Source of the DNA: Alistipes sp.
GTDB lineage: Bacteria; Bacteroidota; Bacteroidia; Bacteroidales; Rikenellaceae
Length of the DNA: 50,395 bases
Assembly (NCBI GenBank): GCA_017546725.1
Contig: JAFYRX010000062.1
Location: 1 to 50,395, forward strand
Direction of reading: 5' to 3'
A program made the position numbers and the translations under genes. The notes beneath the pieces were generated by a model. The model saw nothing but the letters and a program-made list of their open reading frames with translations, searched no databases and was not told where the DNA came from. The stretch's first letter is position 1; the number at the start of each line of letters is the position of its first letter. Below, piece by piece: positions 8,408 through 29,255 of this stretch.

Positions 8408-8753
8408 GACGGAAGTGTTTTGGCAGCGATTGGATGCTCTGCTGGAGCGTTCCGAGATAGTAATAGATAGACCTAAAGGGTCGCATCATCCACGCTTTCA
8501 CGAGATTGTATATGCGTTGGATTATGGCTATTTGGACGGCACTACATCGGCCGATGGCGAGGGTGTTGATGTATGGTTGGGAAGTGAGCCCGAGCGCGGA
8601 CTCAACGCTGTAATTTGTACGGTGGATTTAGATAAAGGTGATGCCGAGATGAAACTTATGGTAGGCTGCACCGAAGACGAGATGCGATATATAGAGGATT
8701 TTTATAACACTTGGCCCGATATGGGAGGATACATCATTAGGCGCGAGGAGTAA
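8400..8753 (+). CDS. Small inorganic-pyrophosphatase-like protein
   Basis: A 117-residue cytoplasmic protein resembling the core of family I inorganic pyrophosphatases: RPKGSHHPRF, YALDYGYLDGT, then DGEGVDVWLG where the classical active-site signature D-x-D-P-x-D would be. Here the middle Asp is Glu and the Pro is Gly, and the chain is well short of the usual 170-180 residues. It could be a divergent phosphohydrolase rather than a true PPi hydrolase. The start codon lies inside the end of rmuC (8-base overlap), so the two are co-translated. Confidence 0.7.
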   Translation: MSKTEVFWQRLDALLERSEIVIDRPKGSHHPRFHEIVYALDYGYLDGTTSADGEGVDVWLGSEPERGLNAVICTVDLDKGDAEMKLMVGCTEDEMRYIEDFYNTWPDMGGYIIRREE

Positions 8754-8803
8754 GATTTCTAAAAATATAACCTTATTTTCAACTATTAAGAACAAAAAAA
8801 ACT

Positions 8804-9790
8804 ATGAAAAAGATTTTATTCATTTCGCTTTTTTTGGCGTGCTGCGTGACAAGTAACGCATTTTCGCAAAATAGCAAAGGAGACTACACCCCTAAATCGC
8901 TGAAAGATTACATCGAAATGGGGTTTGTCAAAAAGAGCGACCTTAAAGATTCGCGCTACGCAGAGGAGTACAACTCCGACGCGGTGGTAATCTACGAGCA
9001 GCGATACATCTTTAACTATGCTCGCTACGGAACTAAATTCGATGTTTTGAAGGCTTTGAACACCAACGCCCGATATTTAGGCTCTCGCGTAAAGGTTATG
9101 CGCCAAATAAAGATTTTGGAGACCGACGGTTTGAAATATGGCAAAATCACGCTACAATATCCCAACGCCGTAAGCCCCACAACCGAGCAGGCAACCATAC
9201 ACTCCATTGCCGCCAACTCTTACACATTGGCGGGTAATAAGATGCAAAAACAGACACTCTCGGTTGACGATGTGACCCACAAACGCATCGACGACAAGAC
9301 TATGCAAACCGAGATAAATATCCCCAATGTCGAGGTTGGTAGCATCATCGAATACACCTATGAAATAGACTATATCACTACCGAAATGAAGTACGACCAC
9401 TCCTTTGCATTGGAGAGCGATTTGCCGATTATCGAGAGTGAATATATGGTACAATTCGACGAGCCGTGGTGGCAGATTGATTCTTACGGAGATTTTGGTT
9501 TTATTGCCGATGCACGCACAACCCGATTTATCGGTAGCATACCCAAAGACCCCGAAAATCTTTACACTCAACTCTCCGTCTCTGCGGCACGCCCATCGGG
9601 CAACAGAGCAAAGCGAGACTTTACACAGGTTGATGCCAAGCAGGTATTTTCTAACAAGCAGGATGGCTACATCACGATGGAGTCGGCACAGCCTTATGAC
9701 TCATTCGAATGTAGTATGGTTACTTTCCGAGCATTGAACGTGCCAGCCCAAGCACCCAAATCAGGCGTAAGAATTACATATAAGCAGTAA
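8804..9790 (+). CDS. Secreted DUF3857-type protein, short form
   Basis: A 328-residue exported protein with a signal peptide ending near NAFSQ. Residues about 60-260 resemble the N-terminal beta-rich domain of DUF3857 proteins (INIPNVEVGSIIEYTYEIDY is characteristic). The transglutaminase-like domain that usually follows is absent, because the frame stops after RITYKQ. Function is unknown. Its coding strand is A/C-rich with many codons ending in C, whereas neighbouring genes are G/T-rich in the coding strand, which hints at recent acquisition or inversion. It is convergent with uvrB. A small GNRA-loop hairpin (TTGCA-GAAA-TGCAA) lies 17 bases after its stop. Confidence 0.65.
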   Translation: MKKILFISLFLACCVTSNAFSQNSKGDYTPKSLKDYIEMGFVKKSDLKDSRYAEEYNSDAVVIYEQRYIFNYARYGTKFDVLKALNTNARYLGSRVKVMRQIKILETDGLKYGKITLQYPNAVSPTTEQATIHSIAANSYTLAGNKMQKQTLSVDDVTHKRIDDKTMQTEINIPNVEVGSIIEYTYEIDYITTEMKYDHSFALESDLPIIESEYMVQFDEPWWQIDSYGDFGFIADARTTRFIGSIPKDPENLYTQLSVSAARPSGNRAKRDFTQVDAKQVFSNKQDGYITMESAQPYDSFECSMVTFRALNVPAQAPKSGVRITYKQ

Positions 9791-9835
9791 AAATATAAAA
9801 TATTAGTTGCAGAAATGCAAATGTTTGAGGAGGTA

Positions 9836-11878
9836 CTACTTTGCTGCCTCCTCTTTGATTTTCTGGAGTTCGTACATACGGTCACGATAGCGTGCAGCGG
9901 CAAGGAAATCTAACGATTTGGCGGCTCGTTCCATATCCTTGCGGGCTTTGGCTATCAGCGCATCTACGTTCTGCGATTCGTATTGACGTTGAGCCTGATA
10001 CTCCTTCTCTACGTCGGCTGCCGTCATATAGTGGTTATCGACAATCGGATATACAGTCATATCTTCAGGCTTTGCCTTGCTTGCGAGCAGTAGGCTTTGT
10101 CCCGTGCCACTCTTTTGGGCTTGGCGGGGGAGCATCTGATGCTCAAGATTATAGCGCACCTGCTTTTCGCGGCGGCGGTTGCTCTGCTCAATGGCTACAC
10201 GCATCGAATCGGTGCATTGGTCGGCATAGAGAATCACTTGGCCGTTTGAATGGCGTGCTGCACGTCCTGCTATCTGCGTAATCGAACGCACGTTTCTCAA
10301 GAATCCCTCCTTGTCGGCATCCAATATAGCCACAAGTCCTACTTCGGGAAGGTCGAGACCTTCTCGCAAAAGGTTTACGCCAATTAGCACATCAAACATA
10401 CCTGCCCGCAAATCCTCCAAAATCTGTACACGCTCAAGTGTGTCGACATCCGAGTGGATGTAACGGTTGCGGATGCCTACGCGGTCAAAATATTTCGACA
10501 ACTCCTCGGCCATACGTTTGGTGATGGTAGTGACTAAAATCTTATCATCCACGCGCGCACGACGCTCAATCTCCTCAATCAGGTCGTCGATTTGATTCTC
10601 AGTAACGCGTACCTCCAATGGCGGGTCTACGAGCCCCGTAGGGCGTATAAGTTGCTCGGCGATAATGCCTTCGCTCTTGTCTAACTCAAAGTCGGTAGGG
10701 GTTGCACTGACGTAAATAGCCGTACCCATCAACGACTCAAACTCTTCGAAGCGCAACGGGCGGTTATCCTTTGCGGCGGGCAGACGGAAGCCGTATTCAA
10801 CAAGATTCTCTTTGCGGGCACGGTCGCCACCATACATAGCGTGTACCTGCGGCAGAGTAACGTGGCTCTCGTCAATGACCATCAGATAATCCTCGGGGAA
10901 GTAGTCGAGCAGGCAGAAGGGGCGTGTGCCCTCGGCGCGCCCGTCAAAGTAACGGGAGTAGTTCTCGATGCCCGAGCAGTAGCCAAGTTCCTTAATCATC
11001 TCCAAGTCGTACTCCACGCGTTGCTTTATGCGTTGTGCCTCCATCTCGCGCCCCTGCTTCTCGTAGAACGAGATGCGCTCGCCGAGGTCGAGATATATCT
11101 GCTGCACGGCGGTGTTGATGCGCTCTTTTGTTGTGACGAATAGGTTTGCTGGGAATATCGTAACCTTGTCCAACGATTCATATCGCTGACCACTAACGGG
11201 GTCAATGAGGTGTATGGTGTCAATCTCGTTGTCGAAGAATGTTATACGGTAGCAGTTGTCGCCAAAGGCGGTCATTATATCTATCGTGTCGCCCTTTACG
11301 CGGAATGTGGCGGGTGTGAGTTCTCGCTCTGTACGAGTGTAGAGTGCCTCGACCAAACGATAGAGGAAATGTTTGTAACTCGCTTGCTGACCGACCTTTA
11401 TTGTTATGGATGTGGCGTGGAAGTCGGCAGGGTTGCCAATACCATACAGACACGATACACTCGATACGACAATCACATCGCGACGGCCCGAAAGCAGAGC
11501 CGAAGTGGTGCTCAATCGCATCTTCTCAATCTCGTCGTTGATGGCGAGGTCTTTCTCGATGTAGGTGTCGGTCGTGGGCAGGTATGCCTCGGGCTGATAG
11601 TAGTCGTAGTACGAAACGAAATACTCTACGGCATTGTCGGGAAAGAAGTTCTTGAACTCGCCATAAAGTTGTGCCGCGAGGGTTTTGTTGTGGCTCAAAA
11701 CGAGTGTCGGACGTTGCAACTTGTTGATTACGTTGGCCACCGTAAAGGTCTTTCCCGATCCCGTTACGCCCAATAACGTAGTATGTCGTGCGCCACTCTC
11801 GATTGAATCTACGAGTTGCGCAATAGCCTCGGGCTGGTCACCCGTAGGCGCATAATCTGACACCAATTTGAAATCCAT
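9836..11878 (-). CDS. uvrB: Excinuclease ABC subunit B
   Basis: UvrB, the damage-verifying helicase-like subunit of nucleotide excision repair, which is loaded by UvrA and recruits UvrC. The 680-residue length is normal. Motifs in order are FKLVSDYAPTGDQPEAI, Walker A GVTGSGKT (about residues 37-44), the beta-hairpin region VSYYDYYQPEAYLPTTDTYIEKD, Walker B-type VIDESHVTLPQ, VSATPTDFE, GVNLLREGLDLPEV and QIAGRAARH. The C-terminus ends in a UVR motif (MERAAKSLDFLAAARYRDRM) that binds UvrC. It sits alone on the minus strand, tail to tail with the DUF3857 gene. Confidence 0.98.
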   Translation of the reverse strand: MDFKLVSDYAPTGDQPEAIAQLVDSIESGARHTTLLGVTGSGKTFTVANVINKLQRPTLVLSHNKTLAAQLYGEFKNFFPDNAVEYFVSYYDYYQPEAYLPTTDTYIEKDLAINDEIEKMRLSTTSALLSGRRDVIVVSSVSCLYGIGNPADFHATSITIKVGQQASYKHFLYRLVEALYTRTERELTPATFRVKGDTIDIMTAFGDNCYRITFFDNEIDTIHLIDPVSGQRYESLDKVTIFPANLFVTTKERINTAVQQIYLDLGERISFYEKQGREMEAQRIKQRVEYDLEMIKELGYCSGIENYSRYFDGRAEGTRPFCLLDYFPEDYLMVIDESHVTLPQVHAMYGGDRARKENLVEYGFRLPAAKDNRPLRFEEFESLMGTAIYVSATPTDFELDKSEGIIAEQLIRPTGLVDPPLEVRVTENQIDDLIEEIERRARVDDKILVTTITKRMAEELSKYFDRVGIRNRYIHSDVDTLERVQILEDLRAGMFDVLIGVNLLREGLDLPEVGLVAILDADKEGFLRNVRSITQIAGRAARHSNGQVILYADQCTDSMRVAIEQSNRRREKQVRYNLEHQMLPRQAQKSGTGQSLLLASKAKPEDMTVYPIVDNHYMTAADVEKEYQAQRQYESQNVDALIAKARKDMERAAKSLDFLAAARYRDRMYELQKIKEEAAK

Positions 11879-11911
11879 ACGACAAAGTTATCTATTTCTT
11901 CTCAATTCACG

Positions 11912-11939
11912 AAAAAAGCGGCAACAAATATGCTGCCGC
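11912..11939 (-). terminator. Terminator after the thioredoxin-like gene
   Basis: On the minus strand, GCGGCA pairs with TGCCGC (plus-strand positions 934-939 and 918-923 of the 11 kb block) and is followed by six T. It begins 28 bases after the stop of the thioredoxin-like lipoprotein gene and separates it from uvrB. Confidence 0.8.
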
Positions 11940-11966
11940 CTATGGGTTTTTGCTTGTGAATAGTGT

Positions 11967-13118
11967 TTATTTCAGAATGGTATCCAATTCCTTGTAGAAA
12001 TCTGGTTGCGCTCCGAGATATTCTTTATGGATTTTACCCTCTTTGTTGAGTATTATATATGTCGGGAACCCCTTGATGTCATACACATTTGTCAAATCCT
12101 TCTCTTCTGCGACACCTTTGGGATTTATTACATTAATCCACGGCAACTCCATATCCTTTACCATCTTTTCCCAAGCAGCCTCCTCCGAATCGTTAACGAC
12201 GCCGACTACCTCAAACTTGCCGGCGTATTTCTGGTAATATTCCTTCAAGTGTGGCATACTTGCTATGCAGGGACCGCACCAAGTTGCCCAAAAGTCTAAT
12301 ACAACCCATTTGCCTCGTAATGAGGAGAGAGAGAATGTATTGCCATTGGTGTCGAAAAGAGTGAAATCGGGAGTGGCAGCGTCAGTGCCGACTACACCCA
12401 TTCTATTGGTTGCCTCTTTCTGCTGCTTTTTAAGCCTTTTCTCTTTTTGAGTTTCGATGTTTTGAAATATTACGGAGAATGGAGAGTTGCGAACTTCATC
12501 GCTTATCAAATCTGCATACTCAATCATATCATCCAAAGAGCCTGTGCCCGAAAGTAGATATGCCGAGATAAGATGGTCGGGGTGCTGGCGTATATAATCT
12601 TGGCAGAGATGAGTCATATCTTCATCAATCTTTTGCTTTTGCTCGGTATATTGTTCGTATGGAATATCCTCGCTCTGTAATAGAGCCGATTGGATGAGTA
12701 ACGGGTTGTATGAAGAGTGAATATTGCCCCAATCTTTGTTAAGTTGTGAGCCGCGAGCCGTAAAACTTGTAACAAAAAGCGAATCCATACGGGCTTTGAA
12801 ACGTACGCGCTCATTGTCAAATCGAAATATGGTTATGTCGGAACATCCATAAAAACGACGTGTGCCACCCTCAATCTTTTGAACACCTTGAGCGGGATAG
12901 AATGTGTAAATAGCAGGCTCGTCGTAAGGTGTCGTGTATGTGATTTTGCCATTGTGCGCAACGAGTGTGTCGGTGTGCTGCTCGTTGTTATCAATAAGTG
13001 TTATGCGTAAGGCAATGGTGTTATTTGTAAGGCCTTCTATATGACCGCTAATAAGATTACGTGGGCCACAAGCCGAAAGCATAGACAAAATTGTAATAAT
13101 GAAGAGAGATTTTTTCAT
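11967..13118 (-). CDS. TlpA-like thioredoxin lipoprotein with DUF4369-type N-terminus
   Basis: A periplasmic thiol-disulfide oxidoreductase of the TlpA/ResA type. The 383-residue protein carries a lipoprotein signal (Cys about residue 17 in SMLSACG). An N-terminal beta-rich region resembles DUF4369 (ISGHIEGLTNNTIALRI), then a helical linker with a KEKRLKKQQKE patch, then a thioredoxin/AhpC-TSA domain from about residue 245. The active site is WATWCGPC, and a cis-Pro region follows near GFPTYIIL. This architecture is common in Bacteroidetes and may reduce exported proteins or assist cytochrome maturation. It has its own -7 box upstream and a terminator downstream. Confidence 0.88.
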   Translation of the reverse strand: MKKSLFIITILSMLSACGPRNLISGHIEGLTNNTIALRITLIDNNEQHTDTLVAHNGKITYTTPYDEPAIYTFYPAQGVQKIEGGTRRFYGCSDITIFRFDNERVRFKARMDSLFVTSFTARGSQLNKDWGNIHSSYNPLLIQSALLQSEDIPYEQYTEQKQKIDEDMTHLCQDYIRQHPDHLISAYLLSGTGSLDDMIEYADLISDEVRNSPFSVIFQNIETQKEKRLKKQQKEATNRMGVVGTDAATPDFTLFDTNGNTFSLSSLRGKWVVLDFWATWCGPCIASMPHLKEYYQKYAGKFEVVGVVNDSEEAAWEKMVKDMELPWINVINPKGVAEEKDLTNVYDIKGFPTYIILNKEGKIHKEYLGAQPDFYKELDTILK

Positions 13119-13148
13119 TGTTTTGTTAATTGTATATTAATAGTAATA

Positions 13149-13240
13149 CAAATATAGATATAAATTCTTAATGCCGAAAATTTTGGCAAGGTTTTATTCG
13201 AAATTATTTATTACTTATTAATATATTTTTGCTACCTTTG
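13149..13240. promoter_or_regulatory. Divergent -7 elements for the thioredoxin gene and dnaG
   Basis: TATATTTG on the minus strand (13156 to 13149) lies 31 bases before the thioredoxin-like gene. TACCTTTG on the plus strand (13233-13240) lies 26 bases before dnaG. Both fit TAnnTTTG. The -33 boxes are not clear. Confidence 0.55.
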
Positions 13241-13266
13241 TACGATTATAGCCTTGTAATGACTGT

Positions 13267-15258
13267 ATGATTGACCACGCTACTATAGATAGGATTTATG
13301 CTGCCGCCGATATTGTGGATATCGTTGGTGATTATGTTACGCTCAAACGTAAGGGCGCTAACTATCAGGCGTGTTGTCCGTTCCATAACGAGAAAACACC
13401 TTCGTTCGTGGTTTCACCTTCGAAGGGTATGTTTAAATGCTTTGGTTGTGGTAAGGGTGGTAATGCCGTTACATTCATTATGGAGCAGGAGAATGTAAAT
13501 TACCCCGAGGCTCTCAAGATGGTGGCTAAACGCTACGGTATCGAGGTTGAGGAGCGAGAGCAGACCGAAGAGGAGGTACGTCGCAATAACGACCGCGAGA
13601 GTATGTTCGCTCTGAATAGTTGGGCGGCGGAATATTTCTCAAAATATCTGTTGGGTAATCCCGAAGGTAAGAGTATCGGTTTATCATATTTTGCTCAAAA
13701 GCGAGGTTTTACGGATGCTACAATCCGTAAATTCGGTCTCGGATTCTGTTCTGCCGAGGGTGATGCAATGTCGCAGGCTGCCTTGGCTGCAGGCTATAAG
13801 GAGGAGTTCTTGCTATCGACAGGTCTTTCGCTCAAGAGTGAGCGTGATGGGCGTCTGCGTGACAGATTCCGTGATAGGGTGATGTTCCCTGTGCATAATA
13901 TCTCGGGCCGAGTAGTGGCCTTTGGTGGCCGTACGTTGCGTACAGATAAGTCTGTAGCAAAGTATCAAAACTCTCCCGAGAGTGAGATTTACAGCAAGAA
14001 ACGAGAACTCTACGGCCTCTATTTTGCAAAGAAGGCTATCCAGCAGATGGATTTTGCCATTATGGTGGAGGGTTATACCGATGTGATTTCGATGCATCAG
14101 GCTGGTGTGGAGAATGTTGTAGCATCGTCGGGAACGTCGCTGACGGTGGAACAGATTCAACTCTTGCACCGCTTTACTCGCAATATAACTGTAATCTACG
14201 ATGGCGATGCGGCAGGAATGAAGGCCTCGCTTCGTGGTATCGACCTTATCTTGAAGGAGGGTATGAATGTCCGTGTGGTGTTGTTGCCTACGGAAGATGA
14301 CCCCGATTCGTTTGCCCGTAGCCATAGCGCAGATGAGGTGCAGAACTATATCCGCGAGAACGAGGAGGACTTCTTGACCTTCAAGGCCAAGTTGTTGCTG
14401 CGTGATGCTGGGCGAGACCCCATCAAACGAGCCGAGGTGATTCGCGATATGGTCGAGTCGATAATCCTTGTGCCGGATGCTATTCAGCGCTCGGTCTTTA
14501 CAAAGGAGTGCGCCCGAATTATGGATGTCGATGAGAGTATGCTCATATCGGAGGTGGCTCGCAAACGTGCAGTACAGTCTGGCGATAGGGAGACTGAAGA
14601 GTTTATTCGCCGTGAGCAGGCCCGAATCCGTCACGAGCAGAAGGCAGCGGCTGGTAGTGCTGATGGCGCATCTATGATGCAGAAAAATATATCTGCGGGC
14701 AGTAGCGAGGAGGCATTGGAGCGAGAGATAATAAAGTATCTGCTTAAGTCGGGCCATAAGAATTTTGAGGTTAAGGAGCATTATGATATTATCTCGATAA
14801 ACATAGCAGATGAGATATTCCGCAATTTGGATAAGGATAATATTGAGTTCTCAAATCGCATATACAATCAGTTGCTTGCGACCTATCGTGAGCATTGGTG
14901 CGAATTGGGTATCGGTGTTGAAGTGGGTGCGCAATACTTTGTAAATCATCCCGACCCCGAGGTGTGTAATGCGGCGGTTGATATCTTGACTTCGGATGAT
15001 AATTACGTGCCGAGCAATATTTGGCAGCGTAAGGATGTGCACGTCGAGAGCGAGGAGGAGATACTGTCGACAGGTGTGCCGAAGGCTATTATGCTCTATC
15101 GCTCGAAGGTTGTTGAGCGAATGATTAAGGCGCAATTAGAGCGCTTGGCCGATACGTCACTCTCTGAGCAAGATGAGGCAGAGTGTATCAAGCAGTTGGA
15201 TTTGCTCAATAAAGTTAAGGCCCAATTAGCCAAAGAGAGTCAGCGCTTGATTTTGTAG
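13267..15258 (+). CDS. dnaG: DNA primase
   Basis: DnaG primase, which makes RNA primers for replication. The 663-residue chain starts with the CHC2 zinc-binding domain (CPFH with Cys37 and His40, then CFGC with Cys58 and Cys61). The catalytic core follows with FGGRTL and the TOPRIM motifs VEGYTDVI and IYDGDAAG. The C-terminal part (from about residue 480) would carry the helicase-interaction region. The first ATG after a good -7 box is used. It heads the plus-strand block and is followed by a 273-base non-coding stretch. Confidence 0.97.
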   Translation: MIDHATIDRIYAAADIVDIVGDYVTLKRKGANYQACCPFHNEKTPSFVVSPSKGMFKCFGCGKGGNAVTFIMEQENVNYPEALKMVAKRYGIEVEEREQTEEEVRRNNDRESMFALNSWAAEYFSKYLLGNPEGKSIGLSYFAQKRGFTDATIRKFGLGFCSAEGDAMSQAALAAGYKEEFLLSTGLSLKSERDGRLRDRFRDRVMFPVHNISGRVVAFGGRTLRTDKSVAKYQNSPESEIYSKKRELYGLYFAKKAIQQMDFAIMVEGYTDVISMHQAGVENVVASSGTSLTVEQIQLLHRFTRNITVIYDGDAAGMKASLRGIDLILKEGMNVRVVLLPTEDDPDSFARSHSADEVQNYIRENEEDFLTFKAKLLLRDAGRDPIKRAEVIRDMVESIILVPDAIQRSVFTKECARIMDVDESMLISEVARKRAVQSGDRETEEFIRREQARIRHEQKAAAGSADGASMMQKNISAGSSEEALEREIIKYLLKSGHKNFEVKEHYDIISINIADEIFRNLDKDNIEFSNRIYNQLLATYREHWCELGIGVEVGAQYFVNHPDPEVCNAAVDILTSDDNYVPSNIWQRKDVHVESEEEILSTGVPKAIMLYRSKVVERMIKAQLERLADTSLSEQDEAECIKQLDLLNKVKAQLAKESQRLIL

Positions 15259-20668: not shown

Positions 20669-22090
20669 ATGAAATATAGTCGCTTATTTGTTTTCTGCGC
20701 CGCTTTGCTTGTTGGTATCGCTATGCAGAGTTGCTGTTGCAATGATGGTTGTGGTATCGAAGGTGAGGGTTACAAGTGGCAGAACGGAATGATTGTCTTC
20801 GACGAGCCTGCGCGTGTGGCTGGTCAGGAGTCTATGTTGGGTTTTGCTGCCGAACCTATCCCCGTAGTGCGTGTGGGATTTGTCGGTATAGGTATGCGCG
20901 GAAGTGCTGCCGTTCAGCGCTTTACACATTTGCAGGGTGTTGAGGTGAAGGGCTTGTGTGACCTCGTGCAGGAGAATATCGATAAGTGCCAAAAAATGCT
21001 GACCGATGCAGGTATGGCTGCGGCTGATGGTTATACCGGTGAGGAGGATTATAAGAAACTTTGTGAGCGAGATGATATTGACCTTATCTACGTTGCAACC
21101 GATTGTACAAATCACGTGAAGGTGGCCTTGTATGCTATGGAGCACGGTAAGCACGTTGCAGTTGAGGTGCCGGGTGCAATCACTCTCGACGAGTGTTGGG
21201 CTTTGGTCGATACTTCGGAGCGTACACGTCGCCACTGTATGATGTTGGAGAATTGTGTTTATGACTTCTTTGAATTGACAACAATGAATATGGCGCATCA
21301 AGGTGTATTTGGCGAAATCGTCCACGCCGAGGGCGCTTATATCCACAATTTGGAGCCTTATTGGGAGGGTAGTTACAAGAATTGGCGTATAAAGTTCAAT
21401 CAGTCACATCGTGGTGATTTGTATCCGACACACGGTTTTGGCCCTATCTGTATGGCTTTGAATATGCACCGAGGTAATAAGATGACCTATCTTGTGTCGA
21501 TTGATACAAAGTCGGTGAATGGTTTGGAAGTTGGTAAAAAACTTTTGGACGTAGATGAGTTCCTCAATGGCGACCATACTACGACTTTTATCAAGACCGA
21601 GTTGGGCCAGACAATCGATTTGCAATATGATGTATATAGCCCACGTCCTTATGACCGTCGTTATCAGTTGACAGGTACAAAGGGCTTTGCAAGTAAGTAT
21701 CCTATCTCGGGTTATACATTTACCGAAGGTATGTTGAAGGAGGGTGTAGTACCCGAAGGCGCAACAGTCAATCCTCACGGCTTTGCATCTCAAGAGATTA
21801 TGGCGGCCGCTATGGATGCCTATAAACATACTATTCATCAAGAGATTGAGGAGGTTGCCAAGAAGGTTGGCGGTCACGGTGGTATGGACTTCGTTATGGA
21901 TTACCGTTTGATTTACTGTTTGCAGAATGGTCTTCCTTTGGACCAGGATGTATATGATGCTGCCGAGTGGTCTTGTATTACACACCTGTCAAGCGTTTCG
22001 CTCAAGCATAATAGTGTTCCTGTTGCAATACCCGACTTTACACGCGGTGATTGGAACAAGTTGGACGGTGTGACGTTCCATATGAAATAG
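20669..22090 (+). CDS. GH109-type Gfo/Idh/MocA lipoprotein (first copy)
   Basis: A 473-residue NAD-dependent Gfo/Idh/MocA-fold protein of the GH109 type, whose characterised members act as alpha-N-acetylgalactosaminidases through a redox mechanism. It has a lipoprotein signal (Cys in MQSCCC). A Rossmann motif lies in VRVGFVGIGMRGSAA, then HGKHVAVEVPGAITLDECW, the conserved CMMLENCVYDFFEL and GGHGGMDFVMDYRLIYCL. It has its own consensus promoter. The next gene is a close paralogue in the same order and orientation. Confidence 0.88.
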   Translation: MKYSRLFVFCAALLVGIAMQSCCCNDGCGIEGEGYKWQNGMIVFDEPARVAGQESMLGFAAEPIPVVRVGFVGIGMRGSAAVQRFTHLQGVEVKGLCDLVQENIDKCQKMLTDAGMAAADGYTGEEDYKKLCERDDIDLIYVATDCTNHVKVALYAMEHGKHVAVEVPGAITLDECWALVDTSERTRRHCMMLENCVYDFFELTTMNMAHQGVFGEIVHAEGAYIHNLEPYWEGSYKNWRIKFNQSHRGDLYPTHGFGPICMALNMHRGNKMTYLVSIDTKSVNGLEVGKKLLDVDEFLNGDHTTTFIKTELGQTIDLQYDVYSPRPYDRRYQLTGTKGFASKYPISGYTFTEGMLKEGVVPEGATVNPHGFASQEIMAAAMDAYKHTIHQEIEEVAKKVGGHGGMDFVMDYRLIYCLQNGLPLDQDVYDAAEWSCITHLSSVSLKHNSVPVAIPDFTRGDWNKLDGVTFHMK

Positions 22091-22161: not shown

Positions 22162-23577
22162 ATGAAATTAAATCGCTTATTTGTTTTGTGCGCCGCTATG
22201 CTTGTGGGCGTTTTGGCGCAGAGCTGCTGCTGCGATAGCGGTATCTCGGGTGAGAACTACAAGTTCGAGAATGGTATGATTGTCTTCGACGAGCCTGCGC
22301 GTGTGGCTGGTCAGGAGTCTATGTTGGGTTTTGCTGCTGACCCTATTCCCGTTGTACGAGTAGGTTTTGTTGGCTTGGGTCAGCGTGGACCGGGTGCAGT
22401 AAACCGTTTTACTCATATCGAGGGTGTTGAGATTAAGGGTTTGTGCGACATCGAGCAGAGCAATGTTGACAAGTGCCAGAAGATGCTTGCAAATGCTAAT
22501 AAGCCTGAGGCTGGTAGTTATGTAGGCCCCGAAGCTTATAAGGAGTTGTGTGAGCGTGATGATGTAGACCTTATCTATATTGCAACAGACTGGATTCACC
22601 ACGTGCCCATCGCATTGTATGCTATGGAGCACGGCAAGCACGTTGCTATCGAGGTTCCTGCTGCTATATCAGTAGAGGAGTGCTGGCAGTTGGTTGATAC
22701 ATCGGAGCGTACACGTCGCCACTGTATGATGTTGGAGAACTGCGTTTACGATTTCTTTGAGTTGACTTGTATGAATATGGCACATCAGGGCGTATTTGGC
22801 GAGATTCTGCACGCCGAGGGTGCTTATATCCACAACTTGTCAGATTATTGGGATAGTTATCACAGCAACTGGCGTTTAGATTTCAACCAGAAGCATCGTG
22901 GTGATGTATATGCTACTCACGGCTTTGGTCCCGTATGTATGGCATTGAACATCCACCGTGGTAACAAGTTGGAGTACTTGGTATGTATGGATACAAAGTC
23001 TGTAAACGGTTTGGAGAAGGCTGCTGCCAAGATGGGTTCTACAGAGTTCGCTAATGGTGACCACACATCTACACTTCTTAAGACTATCAAGGGCCAGACT
23101 ATCGAGATTCAGCACAACGTATATACTCCGCGTCCCTACAACCGTTTGTATCAGTTGACAGGTTCAAAGGGCTTTGCTAACAAGTATCCTGTAACAGGCT
23201 TCACATTCACAGAGGGTATGTTGAAGGATGGTGTTATTCCCGAGGGTGCAACTCTCAATCCTCACGGCTTCGCTTCAAAGGAGATTGAGGATGCTGCGAT
23301 GGCTGCTTACAAGCACCCCATCCACCAGGAGATTGAGGAGAAGGCTAAGACTGTAGGTGGTCACGGCGGTATGGACTTCGTTATGGACTACCGTTTGATT
23401 TACTGCTTGCAGAATGGTCTTCCTTTGGATCAGGATGTATATGATGCAGCAGAGTGGTCTTGCATCGGCGAGTTGTCAGCAGTTTCTGCAAAGCATAACA
23501 GTATGCCCGTTGCAGTGCCTGACTTTACTCGTGGTGATTGGAATAAGTTGGATGGCGTTAAGTTCCATACAAAATAA
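22162..23577 (+). CDS. GH109-type Gfo/Idh/MocA lipoprotein (second copy)
   Basis: A 471-residue paralogue of the preceding gene, alike along nearly its whole length, including the lipoprotein signal (LAQSCCC), the Rossmann motif (VRVGFVGLGQRGPGA), CMMLENCVYDFFEL, the FTEGMLKDGVIPEGA segment and the C-terminus. Differences cluster in the Rossmann edge and in substrate-facing loops (for example WIHHVP here against CTNHVK in copy one). The 71-base gap has no clear promoter, and a strong terminator follows, so both copies probably lie on one transcript. Confidence 0.88.
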   Translation: MKLNRLFVLCAAMLVGVLAQSCCCDSGISGENYKFENGMIVFDEPARVAGQESMLGFAADPIPVVRVGFVGLGQRGPGAVNRFTHIEGVEIKGLCDIEQSNVDKCQKMLANANKPEAGSYVGPEAYKELCERDDVDLIYIATDWIHHVPIALYAMEHGKHVAIEVPAAISVEECWQLVDTSERTRRHCMMLENCVYDFFELTCMNMAHQGVFGEILHAEGAYIHNLSDYWDSYHSNWRLDFNQKHRGDVYATHGFGPVCMALNIHRGNKLEYLVCMDTKSVNGLEKAAAKMGSTEFANGDHTSTLLKTIKGQTIEIQHNVYTPRPYNRLYQLTGSKGFANKYPVTGFTFTEGMLKDGVIPEGATLNPHGFASKEIEDAAMAAYKHPIHQEIEEKAKTVGGHGGMDFVMDYRLIYCLQNGLPLDQDVYDAAEWSCIGELSAVSAKHNSMPVAVPDFTRGDWNKLDGVKFHTK

Positions 23578-23597
23578 TCCTTTTGGAGTAGATTTAC

Positions 23598-23634
23598 GAT
23601 GCGAGGTGGAGAGTTCCGCCTCGCATCTTTTTTT
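23598..23634 (+). terminator. Terminator after the GH109 pair
   Basis: GATGCGAGGTGG (23598-23609) pairs with CCGCCTCGCATC (23616-23627), with one G-T wobble and a 6-base loop. Seven T follow. This isolates the GH109 genes from the trpB leader. Confidence 0.92.
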
Positions 23635-23688
23635 GAATGTTAATGCAAAATAATGCCGTTTTGCGATACAATATTAAATATTTATTCT

Positions 23689-23696
23689 TATATTTG
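23689..23696 (+). promoter_or_regulatory. -7 element of the trpB leader transcript
   Basis: TATATTTG matches TAnnTTTG and would place the start of transcription near 23703, about 13 bases before the leader ATG. A TTTG lies at 23660-23663, but the 25-base spacing is longer than usual. Confidence 0.6.
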
Positions 23697-23715
23697 CATT
23701 ACAAACGAATTTGAT

Positions 23716-23775
23716 ATGATGCAGAATATACATAATTTGTGGTGGTGGCGCTCATTGACTATAATCGGACAATGA
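23716..23775 (+). CDS. Trp leader peptide with three consecutive Trp codons
   Basis: A 19-codon frame begins ATG ATG and ends TGA. Codons 9-11 are TGG TGG TGG (23740-23748), giving NLWWWRS in the middle of the peptide. It sits just after a -7 box and before competing RNA hairpins and a U-tract, upstream of trpB. Trp is rare and three in a row directly before a trp gene is very unlikely by chance. The peptide itself would have no function; ribosome pausing at the Trp codons would be the sensor of charged tRNA-Trp. Confidence 0.85.
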   Translation: MMQNIHNLWWWRSLTIIGQ

Positions 23776-23860
23776 CGTTTACCATATTATGTATTAATGC
23801 ATTATATATTTTTAGATAAAAGCCATTGTTCACAGCAGAGAACGATGGTTTGTTTTTTTT
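23749..23860 (+). promoter_or_regulatory. Transcription attenuator of trpB (1:2, 2:3, 3:4 pairings)
   Basis: Segment 1, TCATTG (23752-23757, plus CG at 749-750 across a bulged C), pairs with segment 2, CAATGA (23770-23775, plus CG). Segment 2 can instead pair over 8 bp as GGACAATG (23767-23774) with CATTGTTC (23824-23831). Segment 3, CCATTGTTC (23823-23831), pairs with segment 4, GAACGATGG (23840-23848), followed by TTTGTTTTTTTT. The leader stop codon overlaps segment 2 and the Trp codons lie just before segment 1. Stalling at Trp would free 2 for 3 (antitermination); reaching the stop would cover 2 and let the terminator form. The 45 bases between 2 and 3 are A/T-rich. Confidence 0.82.
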
Positions 23861-23904
23861 GTTTGTGACAACGGAAGATAATATAGGAAATAAATATTTA
23901 GGTT

Positions 23905-25269
23905 ATGAAAACGAAGAAGTTTGTTTTATCGGAGAGCCAAATGCCTACGGCGTGGTATAATATTGTGGCCGATATGCCCAATAAGCCGATGCCTGCGTTG
24001 GACCCTCAAACGAAGCAACCAGTGACAGAGGAGTCGCTATGTCGTATCTTTGGTGAGGAGTTGGTACGTCAGGAATTATCTACAGAGCGTTTTATCGAAA
24101 TTCCAGAACAGGTGCAGGAACTCTATAAAATATGGCGTCCTACACCCGTTGTGAGAGCATATAACCTGGAGCGAATGTTGGATACGCCCGCCAAGATATA
24201 TTTCAAGAACGAGGGTACTTCGCCCGCAGGCTCGCATAAGCCCAATACGGCTATTCCGCAGGCATATTACAATGCCAAGCAGGGTATAAAGTATTTGGCT
24301 ACGGAGACAGGTGGCGGCCAATGGGGTAGTGCTATGTCGTTGGCGTGCCAATATTTCAATATTGACTTGCGTGTCTATATGGTACGCGTAAGTTGTGAGC
24401 AGAAACCCTATCGTCGTTTGTTGATGAATGCGTGGGGCGCAAATGTAATTCCTTCGCCAAGTATGACCACAGACTTTGGCCGTAAAGTGTTGGCCAAGGA
24501 CCCCGATTGTTCGGGTAATTTGGGTATTGCTATCTCGGAGGCCGTGGAGAGTGCATTGCAGCACGGAGATACTACCCGTTACTGCTTGGGTAGTGTGATG
24601 AATCACGTCTTGTTGCATCAGACCATCATTGGCGAGGAGGCTATCCGTCAGATGGAGATGGCGGGTGATGAGCCCGACGTAGTTATCGGATGTTTTGGCG
24701 GTGGCTCAAACTTCGCGGGTATAGGTTTCCCGTTTATTCGTCGTAATTTGTGCGAAGGAAAAAAGACTCGCGTTGTGGCTGTTGAGCCTGCATCGTGTCC
24801 TAAACTTACGCGCGGAGAGTTCCAATATGATTATGGCGATACTGCAGGTATGACTCCGATGATGCCTATGTTTACACTCGGTCATACGTTCCAGCCTTCG
24901 GATATTCACGCAGGTGGTTTGCGCTATCACGGCGCTGGTCCTATTGTGAGCCAATTGTATAAGGATGGCTTGATGGAGGCGCAGTCGGTGCAGCAGTTGG
25001 AGACCTTCTCGGCGGGTATGTTGTTTGCCAATAGCGAGGGTATTATCCCAGCACCCGAATCGTGCCACGCTATTGCCGCTGCTATACGTGAGGCCAAGCA
25101 GGCTAAGGAGGAGGGCCGCGAGAAGACAATCTTGTTTAACCTCTCGGGAAATGGTATGATTGACCTGTATGCCTACGAGCAGTATTTCAATAACAACCTC
25201 GTTGACCACGAAGTGCCTCAGGAAGAGATTCGTCGTGCCGTAGATGAGTTGGAAAAGATTATAAAGTAG
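23905..25269 (+). CDS. trpB: Tryptophan synthase beta chain, TrpB2 type
   Basis: A PLP enzyme that joins indole and serine to make tryptophan. The 454-residue chain has the N-terminal extension and motifs of the TrpB2 (stand-alone) subgroup: IWRPTPVVRAYNLE, then SPAGSHKPNTA with the PLP lysine at residue 112, TETGGGQWGSA, and the phosphate loop CFGGGSNFAG. No trpA or other trp gene lies next to it, so it may salvage indole or support the main trp operon elsewhere. It is preceded by its own Trp attenuator and followed by a terminator. Confidence 0.93.
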   Translation: MKTKKFVLSESQMPTAWYNIVADMPNKPMPALDPQTKQPVTEESLCRIFGEELVRQELSTERFIEIPEQVQELYKIWRPTPVVRAYNLERMLDTPAKIYFKNEGTSPAGSHKPNTAIPQAYYNAKQGIKYLATETGGGQWGSAMSLACQYFNIDLRVYMVRVSCEQKPYRRLLMNAWGANVIPSPSMTTDFGRKVLAKDPDCSGNLGIAISEAVESALQHGDTTRYCLGSVMNHVLLHQTIIGEEAIRQMEMAGDEPDVVIGCFGGGSNFAGIGFPFIRRNLCEGKKTRVVAVEPASCPKLTRGEFQYDYGDTAGMTPMMPMFTLGHTFQPSDIHAGGLRYHGAGPIVSQLYKDGLMEAQSVQQLETFSAGMLFANSEGIIPAPESCHAIAAAIREAKQAKEEGREKTILFNLSGNGMIDLYAYEQYFNNNLVDHEVPQEEIRRAVDELEKIIK

Positions 25270-25347: not shown

Positions 25348-25782
25348 CTACTTACAGGCAATCTTCTCTACACGGCGGATGTGGCGACCACCCTCGAACT
25401 CGGTGTTGAGGAACTTCTCAACGATAGCCATAGCCTCGTCGTTTGAGATAAAACGTGCGGGCAAAACCACTACGTTGGCATCGTTGTGCTGACGAATTAA
25501 CTCTGCTACAGTGTCGTTCCAGCACAAACCTGCGCGTACAGCCTGATGCTTGTTGAGTGTCATAGCCATACCCTCGCCAGAACCGCAAAGACCAATACCG
25601 CGCTTCAACTCACCATTCTCGATAGCCTCTGCCAAAGCGTGGCCAAAGTCGGGGTAGTCGATGCTCTCTTCAGAGTGAGTACCGAAATCGATTACTTCGT
25701 AACCCTTTGTAGAGAGATAACCTACCAAAAACTCCTTCATTTCATAACCTGCGTGGTCGCAGGCAATACCCAATTTTTTCAT
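25348..25782 (-). CDS. rpiB: Ribose-5-phosphate isomerase B
   Basis: RpiB interconverts ribose-5-phosphate and ribulose-5-phosphate in the pentose phosphate pathway. The 144-residue length is typical of the RpiB/LacAB family. Motifs are IACDHAGYEMKEFL at the N-terminus, VIDFGTHSEESIDYPDFG, GLCGSGEGMA, and AGLCWNDTVAELIRQHNDANV. It stands alone on the minus strand; a possible -7 box (TACTTTTG) lies at 25820 to 25813. Confidence 0.95.
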   Translation of the reverse strand: MKKLGIACDHAGYEMKEFLVGYLSTKGYEVIDFGTHSEESIDYPDFGHALAEAIENGELKRGIGLCGSGEGMAMTLNKHQAVRAGLCWNDTVAELIRQHNDANVVVLPARFISNDEAMAIVEKFLNTEFEGGRHIRRVEKIACK

Positions 25783-26252: not shown

Positions 26253-26843
26253 TTACGCTTGTTGAGTGCGCATCATCTTAAGCCATCGTTTGTAGCCCAC
26301 TATGGCCAAAACGCAATACAGGGCATAAAGTCCTGCCGTCAGCGGAATGTCTTTATATACATATAATCCCACAGTAATCACATCCACCGCAAGCCATACG
26401 AGCCATTGCTCTACAAACTTACGCGAAAGCATCCAATAAGCCACGATACATAGAGCAGTAGTCATAGCATCCCAAAATGGTACGTTGCTGTCTGTAAAGG
26501 TGATTAATATGTAATATATTGCAGTGTGGAGTATAACGTATAACATCAGGATGTAGCCCCACATCCTCGCAGGAGTTGAACTGATGCCGGTGGTGGATTT
26601 GTCCTTGGATTTTTGGAGGAAATTACCTCGTGCCCAGACTGCTAATCCATATAAGCCAGCAAGAATATAATATACCTGCATAGCACAATCGGCATAAAGG
26701 CCCGACTTGAAATAGAGTGCGCCGTGTACTATGGGCATAATTATGCCGACCACCCATAGCCAGATATTAGCCTTGTATTCTAAATACAAGTACAAAAGTC
26801 CAAGCGCAACGCCTACCACTTGCAGAATCAGTTTCCACTCCAT
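26253..26843 (-). CDS. pnuT: Thiamine transporter PnuT (PnuC family)
   Basis: A 196-residue inner-membrane protein of the PnuC/Slc-type vitamin transporters, with about seven hydrophobic segments. It shows the family pattern of LYLYLEYKANIWLWVVGI near the N-terminus and SGLYADCAMQVYYILAGLYG. Members carry nicotinamide riboside, riboflavin or thiamine. Here the gene lies 18 bases after a TonB receptor in a transcript led by a TPP riboswitch, so thiamine is the likely substrate (the PnuT subgroup). The operon known from Bacteroides also has a thiamine pyrophosphokinase-like gene; none follows here. Confidence 0.88.
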   Translation of the reverse strand: MEWKLILQVVGVALGLLYLYLEYKANIWLWVVGIIMPIVHGALYFKSGLYADCAMQVYYILAGLYGLAVWARGNFLQKSKDKSTTGISSTPARMWGYILMLYVILHTAIYYILITFTDSNVPFWDAMTTALCIVAYWMLSRKFVEQWLVWLAVDVITVGLYVYKDIPLTAGLYALYCVLAIVGYKRWLKMMRTQQA

Positions 26844-26861
26844 AATTATATGTTTTTACGA

Positions 26862-29108
26862 CTAAAATCTCACGCTAACATTTGCCAAAACGTGCAACAT
26901 CGCTTGCGGGAAGTAATATGCCTCATCATAGCGTACCCCGTCCCACATATACGAATAACCATATCCGTTACTGCAATACTCCTGATTAAAGAGATTGTAA
27001 ATGTTTAAGCCGAAAAGTACCTTCTTCTCCGAATGAGAGGGTAAGGTATAACCCAATTCAAGGTTTGTCACCGTATATGCATCGAGCGTCAATGCCTCAA
27101 TCTCGTTGTTTGTGAAGTATTGTTTGCCGATGTGTTGAGTACGTAAAGTAGCCTCAAAACCTCGATGATGTACATCCAAGTAAGCCGAAGCGATAATGTT
27201 GGGTGAGTAGGCAATGGTCATATCGCCAAGATTCTCGCCGTAAGTGGGACTGTCGGCCAATAAATCGATATAGTTACGAATTTTGTTTTGGCTCCACGTT
27301 GCATTTCCACCCGCTGTGAGCCATTTGGTAATATTCCAAGCGGCAGCGACCTCTACGCCATAACGATAACTGTCGGGTACGTTTACGTTCAAGGCATCAG
27401 AACTGTCATTGACCATACCTGTCGGGATGAGTTGGTCCTTGTATTGCATATAATACAGGTTTAGGCCCAAACTAAATCTGTTGGATGAGTAGTTATAACC
27501 TGCCTCATAATCGATAAGCATCTCTGGCGATGGTTGCGTGTCATCATCCGCAAACATATAACGGTCTGTAAAGTCCGAACGAGTAGGCTCTTTTTGTGCT
27601 ATTGCGGCTGAGATAAATATCGAGTTGCGAGAATCAAATTCGTAACTCAAACCGATGTGCGGATTCAAGAAATGATACTGTTTGTCAACGTCGATAGGCT
27701 GCATCTGCATTGTCTCCCAATCGAAGTTGTCGTTTACGCCCCACGCCTTGTAGTCAACGATGCGATACTGCAAGTCGGCATATAGGTTCAATCCCTTTGC
27801 TGGTTGCCACGCCATCTTTGCGAATACGTTAGCGTCGTGCTTTTTGACATCGTTATTGTACCAACGGCCTCCGATTTGATTGTTTTGCATACCATCTACC
27901 CAATCCAATTCACCCCAATGCGGGCAGGTGTAATAACTCCACGCTCCACCGAATAACAACGAGATGTTCTCGGCCTTGTAACTTGTCGTTAAGTTTACTC
28001 CTGCTGTGTGGTTGCGCATAATCTTATTGCGTATAATGTCGGCCTCGATGCTTGAGTCTGTGATTCCCAAATTACCATATTCCAACAATGTGCGGGCATC
28101 CTTGTATTGCTTGTAGTATCCGTAGCCGTAGGTATAGAAACCTGTTGTGTTGATGGCCCACAGGTCATTAAAACGGTGCGATATAATGAGTTGATTGTTG
28201 ATTTGCAGATAGTTGTCCGTCTGGTCATCGTAATAATCAACGTGTGTGCCATCGGCCAAAACGTATGGGCCGTGTGACGTTTCATATTGTCCTTCGGTGT
28301 GGTAGCGACGTCCGTAGAGCGCCATCTCCTCTTTCGTAACACCCGTATATGTGAGGTTGGTTTTTGCTTTGCCGCCAAACGATATGAGTTTTATGGTTGT
28401 CTTGTCACCATAATGTGCACCTTGCAACATATAAGATTTGAGGTCTGTTGCACCGCGCTCAATATATCCGTCTGAGCCGATGTGCGACAAGCGTCCGTCT
28501 ATCATCCATCCGCTTCCCATCAATCCTGAACTGATGCGTACTGCCTGCTTGTTAGTGTTGTAAGAGCCGTAAGAGAGCGAGGCTTCACCTTCGAAATCAG
28601 TCGTTGGGGCAGCCGTTGTCATACTTATTGCTCCACCAAAAGCGCCAGTTCCATTGGTCGATGTTCCTGCTCCACGCTGCACCTGCACATCGCCTATGGC
28701 TGATATCAGGTCTGGGGTGTCGTACCAATATGTGGAGTGAGAGTCGGGGTTGTTCAGCGACATACCGTTGAGCGTAACGTTCAATCGTGTGGCATCTGTA
28801 CCTCGCAAGCGAATAGATGTGCCACCAATGCCTATTCCAGTTTCGTTTGTCGCGACTAACGAAGGCGTAAGAGCCAACATCGAAGGAATATCCAAGGCAT
28901 AGTTGCTTTTCTGGATTTGTTCCTTCGAGATGTTGGAGTGTGCAATGGGTGTGGACTTTTGTGCGCGTGTGGCTACAACCTCGATGAGTTCTACATCATA
29001 GTGTCGTACAGAATCCTGTTCGTTGATTGTTTTTGCTTGATTTGACGATTGTGCTTGTGCGCCCACAAAAGTGACAGCGGCGGCGAGTGTCAAAAAAAAC
29101 CTTTTCAT
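26862..29108 (-). CDS. TonB-dependent outer-membrane receptor, probably for thiamine
   Basis: A 748-residue outer-membrane receptor. It has a signal peptide (ending near GAQAQ), a possible TonB-box region (DVELIEVVATRAQ), a plug domain with SMLALTPSLVATNETGIGIGG-type sequence and RGTDATRLNVTLNGM, and a beta-barrel rich in aromatic residues that ends in ANVSVRF (C-terminal Phe). A TPP riboswitch precedes it and pnuT follows by 18 bases, which points to uptake of thiamine or its precursors. The barrel alone would not give the substrate. Confidence 0.9.
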   Translation of the reverse strand: MKRFFLTLAAAVTFVGAQAQSSNQAKTINEQDSVRHYDVELIEVVATRAQKSTPIAHSNISKEQIQKSNYALDIPSMLALTPSLVATNETGIGIGGTSIRLRGTDATRLNVTLNGMSLNNPDSHSTYWYDTPDLISAIGDVQVQRGAGTSTNGTGAFGGAISMTTAAPTTDFEGEASLSYGSYNTNKQAVRISSGLMGSGWMIDGRLSHIGSDGYIERGATDLKSYMLQGAHYGDKTTIKLISFGGKAKTNLTYTGVTKEEMALYGRRYHTEGQYETSHGPYVLADGTHVDYYDDQTDNYLQINNQLIISHRFNDLWAINTTGFYTYGYGYYKQYKDARTLLEYGNLGITDSSIEADIIRNKIMRNHTAGVNLTTSYKAENISLLFGGAWSYYTCPHWGELDWVDGMQNNQIGGRWYNNDVKKHDANVFAKMAWQPAKGLNLYADLQYRIVDYKAWGVNDNFDWETMQMQPIDVDKQYHFLNPHIGLSYEFDSRNSIFISAAIAQKEPTRSDFTDRYMFADDDTQPSPEMLIDYEAGYNYSSNRFSLGLNLYYMQYKDQLIPTGMVNDSSDALNVNVPDSYRYGVEVAAAWNITKWLTAGGNATWSQNKIRNYIDLLADSPTYGENLGDMTIAYSPNIIASAYLDVHHRGFEATLRTQHIGKQYFTNNEIEALTLDAYTVTNLELGYTLPSHSEKKVLFGLNIYNLFNQEYCSNGYGYSYMWDGVRYDEAYYFPQAMLHVLANVSVRF

Positions 29109-29141: not shown

Positions 29142-29176
29142 CGAAAAGGGGTATATGTGTCGATTACGCATATCCC
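29142..29176 (-). terminator. Candidate expression platform of the TPP riboswitch
   Basis: On the minus strand GGGATATG pairs with CATATACCC (one bulged A) and is followed by CTTTTCGTGTTTTT. The same 3' part, ACCCCTT (29152 to 29146), is exactly complementary to AAGGGGT at the 5' edge of the aptamer (29241 to 29235). These exclusive pairings could form the switch, but which state is ON is not clear from inspection. Confidence 0.45.
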
Positions 29177-29245
29177 GGTCTCGGCATTACCCGTATCCGG
29201 TACAATGGGTATAATCTCAGCCTGATAGTAAGGCACCCCTTATGA
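29166..29245 (-). promoter_or_regulatory. TPP riboswitch (THI element)
   Basis: Read on the minus strand, the conserved blocks occur in order: GGGGTGCC, then GGCTGAGATTATACCC, then GGGTAATGCCG, closing near CCGGGATATG. The base CATA before the first block can pair with TATG at the end as part of P1. This is the aptamer that binds thiamine pyrophosphate. It lies 58 bases before the TonB receptor start and presumably represses it when TPP is plentiful. Confidence 0.93.
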
Positions 29246-29255
29246 ATATCGTGGG

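Follow-up and report, generated by a model that had tools for sequence, protein, structure and literature searches.

A predicted ribosome-mediated tryptophan attenuator precedes a stand-alone trpB2 gene in a genus of Bacteroidales

Introduction

What controls a tryptophan synthase beta gene that stands alone? The question is raised by a 50,395-nucleotide stretch of DNA from an Alistipes sp. genome (here called the window), in which a short frame with Trp codons and a hairpin with a U-tract precede trpB2. In Escherichia coli, the trp leader trpL has consecutive Trp codons, a stop codon in segment 2, the pairings 1:2, 2:3, and 3:4, and a U-tract. A sequence-only reading of the window had proposed the same layout in front of trpB2 and had remarked on its occurrence in a Bacteroidales-like genome. 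The mechanism itself is no surprise there, since Trp attenuators are known in Bacteroidota: RF01692 (Bacteroid-trp), a Bacteroidota Trp peptide leader, is named in a table of PMC2864571 (Weinberg 2010), and a passage of PMC6414381 mentions Trp attenuation of the Flavobacterium psychrophilum trp operon.

Results

The leader peptide ORF (MMQNIHNLWWWRSLTIIGQ*, plus strand, 23716 to 23775, 19 codons plus stop) was read directly from the sequence. It begins with ATG at 23716, has TGG TGG TGG at 23740 to 23748, and ends with TGA at 23773 to 23775, in agreement with the 19-codon frame and three Trp codons described before. The ORF is predicted to be translatable, and its Trp codons are clustered, as in an attenuator leader. 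The RNA elements lie on the same strand. Segment 1 (UCAUUG, 23752 to 23757) pairs with 23770 to 23775 by sequence reading and fold, and helix 1:2 is present in the window's fold. The segment 2 core (GGACAATG / GGACAAUG, 23767 to 23774) is the 5' strand of the antiterminator and is overlapped by the leader stop codon, which was thus rightly placed inside segment 2. Segment 3 (23820 to 23831) is the 5' arm of the terminator, and its core (CATTGTTC / CAUUGUUC, 23824 to 23831) doubles as the 3' strand of the antiterminator. With segment 4 (23840 to 23851) and the U-tract (23853 to 23860), it makes up an intrinsic terminator at 23820 to 23860, between the leader ORF and trpB2. The proposed fold of the RNA from 23700 to 23870 gave a minimum free energy of -56.9 kcal/mol, compared with -31.4 (SD 3.4) in 200 shuffles (z, -7.4). 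Its terminator stem has 12 pairs and is longer than the 9 bp claimed from the sequence.

The gene behind the terminator, trpB2 (23905 to 25269, plus strand), encodes a tryptophan synthase beta-like PLP enzyme of 454 amino acids. The protein scores over the curated cut-offs of two profiles, NF009057 (718 bits; cut-off, 366) and TIGR01415 (622 bits; cut-off, 518.85). Its closest solved relatives by sequence, 6hul, 4qys, and 6hte, are named as tryptophan synthase beta chains, and the best match, 6hul_B at 441 bits, is a likeness at the family level only. The nearest upstream gene, of the Gfo/Idh family, ends at 23577, 139 nt ahead of the leader, and rpiB (25348 to 25782) is convergent downstream. 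With a Gfo/Idh gene pair on one side and convergent rpiB on the other, trpB2 is therefore a single-gene unit. A lone TrpB2 behind the attenuator, with neighbors that are not co-operonic trp genes, is what had been described.

The two Gfo/Idh-family paralogues lie side by side at 20669 to 22090 and 22162 to 23577, and the second also matches a GH109 C-terminal domain. By sequence reading, a hairpin and T-run near 23597 to 23636 belong to this second gene. Elsewhere in the window, a TPP riboswitch (29156 to 29250, minus strand; 57.4 bits against a gathering score of 54.3) precedes genes for a TonB-dependent receptor (26862 to 29108) and a PnuC-type transporter (26253 to 26843). The three likely form a thiamin uptake operon.

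The -7 consensus of Bacteroidota promoters is TAnnTTTG. A motif match to it, TATATTTG, lies at 23689 to 23696 on the plus strand. Within 80 nt ahead of the Trp codons, TAnnTTTG occurs in 51 of 54 genus leaders, against a shuffle expectation of 9%, and it mostly stands 50 to 58 nt before the first Trp codon. Between the terminator and trpB2 we found none at any of the 54 genus loci. The box at 23689 to 23696 is likely the sole promoter of the trpB2 unit, as judged by motif.

We found TrpB2 in 58 of 151 genomes of the window's genus. A 59th match, in a genus member without TrpB2 (L159, G008:C2), is a distant beta chain-like gene with 30% identity, and no trpA or IGPS was found in that genome. 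The 58 loci represent 57 distinct genes, since L065 and L130 are the same place, and 55 of these have at least 200 nt of upstream DNA. In 54 of the 55, trpB2 lies behind a terminator and a leader in which two or more Trp codons are clustered. The single exception, L134 of genome G128, lies about 110 nt behind another gene. Conservation in relatives had been named beforehand as a point on which the proposal should fail or stand, and it stood. The Trp cluster has 2 to 4 codons, and outside it the leader peptides differ widely. Arg or His is frequent directly after the Trp run. A covariance model of these leaders, R1, gave 55 strong matches. Of these, 54 are the sequences used to build it and match by construction; the one new locus, in G153 (L236), was also read by eye. 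Three weak R1 matches were rejected: G124:C219 and G018:C50 are hairpins after genes and have no Trp leaders, and G000:C66 is an ilvD leader, not a trpB2 attenuator.

The compensatory changes that were to be sought in relatives are present in helices 2:3 and 3:4. The 8-bp core of helix 2:3 is paired in all 54 genus sequences (432/432 cells). Two of its pairs have both-sided changes, in 14 cells, and 0 of 500 shuffles reached either figure; for further pair types, 69 of 500 shuffles reached the observed number. Over 11 bp, 542 of 594 cells are paired, compared with 503 (maximum, 519) after exchange of arms between species, and 39 both-sided cells fall in 5 pairs, a number reached in 0 of 500 arm permutations. 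In the terminator helix 3:4, 98.1% of 593 cells are paired and 93 both-sided cells fall in 6 of 11 pairs (0/500 shuffles as high). From this comparison, antiterminator 2:3 is conserved and is mutually exclusive with the terminator, as an attenuator needs. Helix 1:2 showed no covariation in the genus: 82.0% of its cells are paired, compared with 82.3% in column shuffles, and sliding the proposed register by +3 raises the covariation score. On this ground, helix 1:2 was not counted as a conserved element. Thus, of the three alternative pairings proposed earlier, 2:3 and 3:4 are borne out by covariation and 1:2 is not.

The position of the ribosome relative to these helices was modelled as a 30-nt footprint mask in folding. 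In all 54 genus sequences, the segment 2 core starts 15 to 20 nt past the last Trp codon. For the window, the probability of helix 2:3 was 0.996 with the ribosome at the last Trp codon and 2e-6 without a ribosome; with the ribosome at the stop codon it was 0, as segment 2 is then masked by construction. Over the 54 genus sequences, the mean was 0.91 at the last Trp codon, 0.15 at the stop codon, and 0.15 without a ribosome. It reached 0.5 or more with the ribosome on the last Trp codon in 50 of 54, below 0.5 at the stop in 46 of 54, and below 0.5 in the unoccupied leader in 47 of 54. The stop codon is placed so that a terminating ribosome would hide segment 2 in 32 of the 54, the window included. 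In the other 22 it lies downstream of segment 2; there masking is weaker, and the mean at the stop is 0.36. A coarser measure, which counts every pairing of segment 3 with upstream sequence under the footprint mask, gave 0.79 (Trp codon), 0.67 (stop), and 0.31 (no ribosome) in the window. A paired-to-unpaired switch was found in 50 of 54 genus sequences, and in 41 of 54 at most 1 of 20 shuffles was as high. When the complete leader was folded at equilibrium, the terminator was favored at every ribosome position (mean, 0.94 to 0.95). Because the terminator wins in every state, antitermination must be kinetic. The switch of the E. coli trp attenuator is likewise kinetic.

Beyond the genus, a locus passed if it had a terminator together with a leader that starts with ATG and has two or more Trp codons in a stretch of 6. 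Among 102 trpB2 loci with 320 nt upstream, 31 passed, 16 of 16 in the window's genus and 15 of 86 outside it. In 40 rounds of dinucleotide shuffling of the 102 loci, a mean of 0.3 and a maximum of 1 passed. When all sense codons were compared under the same test, TGG came first (31) and TTG second (9). Among 73 further Bacteroidales trpB2 genes drawn evenly from the order, 27 passed (shuffles: mean, 0.3; maximum, 2), including the doubtful L211, whose leader is 226 nt away. These 73 are a subset of 86 order matches, most of the others having been covered before, and G238 and G267 were left out; the 102-locus and 73-gene sets may share genomes. L012 and L151 sit at the ends of contigs, G174 is truncated, and L045 was dropped for its TTG start. 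None of 24 loci passed whose record titles, as deposited, name other phyla; one of them, L096, has only 126 nt upstream. With 15 of 86 and 27 of 73 outside the genus and 0 of 24 in other phyla, we rejected the attenuator as a trait of all TrpB2. In the 31-locus set, with the last Trp codon of the cluster as anchor, the switch was found in 26 of 31, and in 18 of 31 at most 2 of 50 shuffles were as high. This anchor superseded an antiterminator test anchored on the final Trp codon anywhere in the ORF, in which 15 of 31 stood at no more than 10 of 200 shuffles.

On a tree of 106 TrpB2 proteins, the attenuator trait required 11 changes, at least 7 of them on well-supported branches, compared with 29 when labels were shuffled. 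In this scoring, L020, L025, L041, and L099, which have no accepted terminator, were counted as attenuators, and four rows were unscored. By this comparison of proteins and leaders, the attenuator before trpB2 is clustered on the tree, yet repeatedly gained or lost.

The closest known kind of leader is RF01692. The window's leader matched it at 23.4 bits (E, 2.7 in 401 bases), where the gathering score is 49, and we rejected membership; the subthreshold alignment spans 23693 to 23830 with the Trp codons in register. No match to RF01692 was found in the source genome at E 0.001 or in 17 related loci at the gathering score. At E 0.001, it matched 3 of 61 relatives, none of the window's genus. 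The RF01692-matching relatives from the order (L001 to L003; 48.5 to 50.2 bits) carry it before trpB1-like genes.

In 37 genomes of the genus, we found no trpA over the cut-off (two matches were partial and subthreshold) and no IGPS; the two models were each positive in 14 of 14 control genomes. The window's source genome is 85% complete. As neither trpA nor IGPS turned up in the 37 genomes, TrpB2 likely serves in indole salvage, and the earlier salvage reading fits these absences. TrpB2 itself is present in 16 of the 37 and missing from 21, so salvage is dispensable. A trpE-like gene was found in 1 of 61 genomes, the genus member G078 (3.5 Mb), below the curated cut-off. As read by eye, G078 has an apparently complete trp operon (L116, 7588 to 14053), preceded by a leader, MNPIMKSFSINNAWWWRLQFSVVSDLPRVVVER*, and a terminator (L116 region 7436 to 14053), and it also has an attenuated trpB2 elsewhere (L145).

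Genes of the tryptophanase family were matched in 46 of 61 genus genomes, and no match exceeded the equivalog cut-off. The one in the window's genome (G000:C46:3518-4858, L114) scores 591 against 285 bits with the broad tryptophanase subfamily model and falls under the cut-offs of both the Trp and Tyr lyase equivalogs. Several other genus members, without the L114 form, have a Porphyromonas gingivalis-type TnaA-like score pattern. TrpB2 could be fed by indole from neighbors or from the cell's own lyase.

Upstream of ilvD in the source genome (L234, 1340 to 1512; G000:C66), we observed an Ile/Leu/Val-rich leader, MSSSLYIIISLILVVLRR*, and a hairpin. Of 16 ilvD regions fetched from the genus (L238 to L253), 15 were anchored; all 15 have the leader and 14 an accepted terminator.

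Discussion

We conclude, with a probability of roughly 0.87, that a ribosome-mediated transcription attenuator controls trpB2. Sequence comparison supports the leader, its Trp codons, helices 2:3 and 3:4, a single upstream promoter motif, and the absence of trpA and IGPS from the genus genomes scanned. We infer that the leader responds to charged tRNA-Trp through kinetic coupling and that its target would serve in indole salvage. According to this model, RNA polymerase would start about 10 nt past the -7 box at 23689 to 23696 and make a leader RNA of roughly 160 nt. When charged tRNA-Trp is ample, the ribosome would pass UGG UGG UGG to the stop codon in segment 2 and cover that segment, and the 3:4 terminator would end transcription. 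When charged tRNA-Trp is scarce, the ribosome would stall on the Trp codons and cover segment 1. Segment 2 would then pair with segment 3 ahead of the synthesis of segment 4, and the polymerase would read on into trpB2. The enzyme would convert indole, external or from Trp breakdown, and serine or O-phosphoserine to Trp.

As the sequence features suggest, the mechanism is very probably that of classical ribosome-mediated Trp attenuators, which are already known from trp operons of Bacteroidota. Like E. coli trpL, the window's leader has consecutive Trp codons, a stop codon in segment 2, alternative pairings, and a U-tract. In contrast, trpL controls trpEDCBA, and the window's leader would control one trpB2 gene, with three Trp codons (2 to 4 in the genus) and in a genus where a trp pathway was not found in most genomes scanned; we claim no sequence relation between the two. 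RF01692 is alike in being a Bacteroidota Trp peptide leader and differs in that the window's leader falls below its gathering score. Passages of PMC1262725 describe candidate attenuators of trpB1EDGC and trpB2A in Corynebacterium diphtheriae; there, too, an attenuator lies ahead of an operon starting with a gene named trpB2, but trpA follows and the actinobacterium has a biosynthetic operon, whereas the window's trpB2 is alone. Passages of PMC9723704 report leader-peptide attenuation of F. psychrophilum amino acid operons. This is the same phylum and presumably the same mechanism, although the Trp target in F. psychrophilum is a trp operon, not a stand-alone trpB2, and the class is another. 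In the main texts of the literature searched, we found no attenuator before a stand-alone trpB2. As far as those texts go, this target is new, and so is the retention of the attenuator by nearly all trpB2 genes of a genus in which no Trp pathway was detected.

Could the leader peptide instead arrest the ribosome on free Trp or indole, so that a small molecule rather than charged tRNA-Trp is sensed? TnaC of the tna operons is a precedent for peptide arrest, the tryptophanase-family genes that 46 of 61 genus genomes carry (all below the equivalog cut-off) link indole and Trp levels, and Arg or His often follows the Trp run. The peptides nevertheless diverge outside a cluster of 2 to 4 Trp codons, as codon sensing predicts, and segment 2 lies 15 to 20 nt from the last Trp codon, the spacing needed for stalling there. 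We consider peptide arrest improbable. Slightly less probable still is that the mechanism is right and its purpose another, with TrpB2 making a different amino acid or product and Trp sensing retained for some other reason. The solved relatives are called tryptophan synthase beta chains at the family level only, but two profiles are over their cut-offs, regulation through Trp codons points to Trp as the product, and passages of PMC11085991 cite a report that a Thermococcus kodakarensis TrpB2 acts in indole salvage. It is very improbable that the hairpin is just the terminator of the upstream gene, that the Trp-rich ORF arose by chance, and that trpB2 has its own constitutive promoter: the Gfo/Idh gene does end 139 nt ahead of the leader, but it has its own hairpin and T-run, no -7 box lies between terminator and trpB2 at any of 54 genus loci, the pattern arises in at most 1 of 102 shuffled loci, and helix 2:3 has compensatory changes.

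We tentatively suggest, at somewhat less than an even chance, that gaining and losing trpB2 attenuators is a Bacteroidales-wide habit (at least 7 to 11 changes on the tree). In a genus that had shed its Trp pathway, the attenuator may be the surviving sensor of Trp starvation, which would turn salvage on only at low tRNA-Trp charging and avoid a futile cycle with tryptophanase.

The ilvD leader is likely, as judged from its conserved layout, a second ribosome-mediated attenuator of the same genome. If so, the Trp and Ile/Leu/Val leaders together would imply tight coupling of transcription to translation in these bacteria, a subject on which our literature search found no paper for Bacteroidota. 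Attenuation works only with the ribosome close behind RNA polymerase; therefore, the conserved leaders offer a direct assay of coupling. The Trp leaders of this genus are a set that the current Rfam family misses. They would tie a charged-tRNA sensor to the use of indole in a gut-type genus of Bacteroidota whose 37 scanned genomes yielded neither trpA nor trpC. They may also provide a switch, open to experiment, between Trp import and Trp synthesis from the indole of neighbors.
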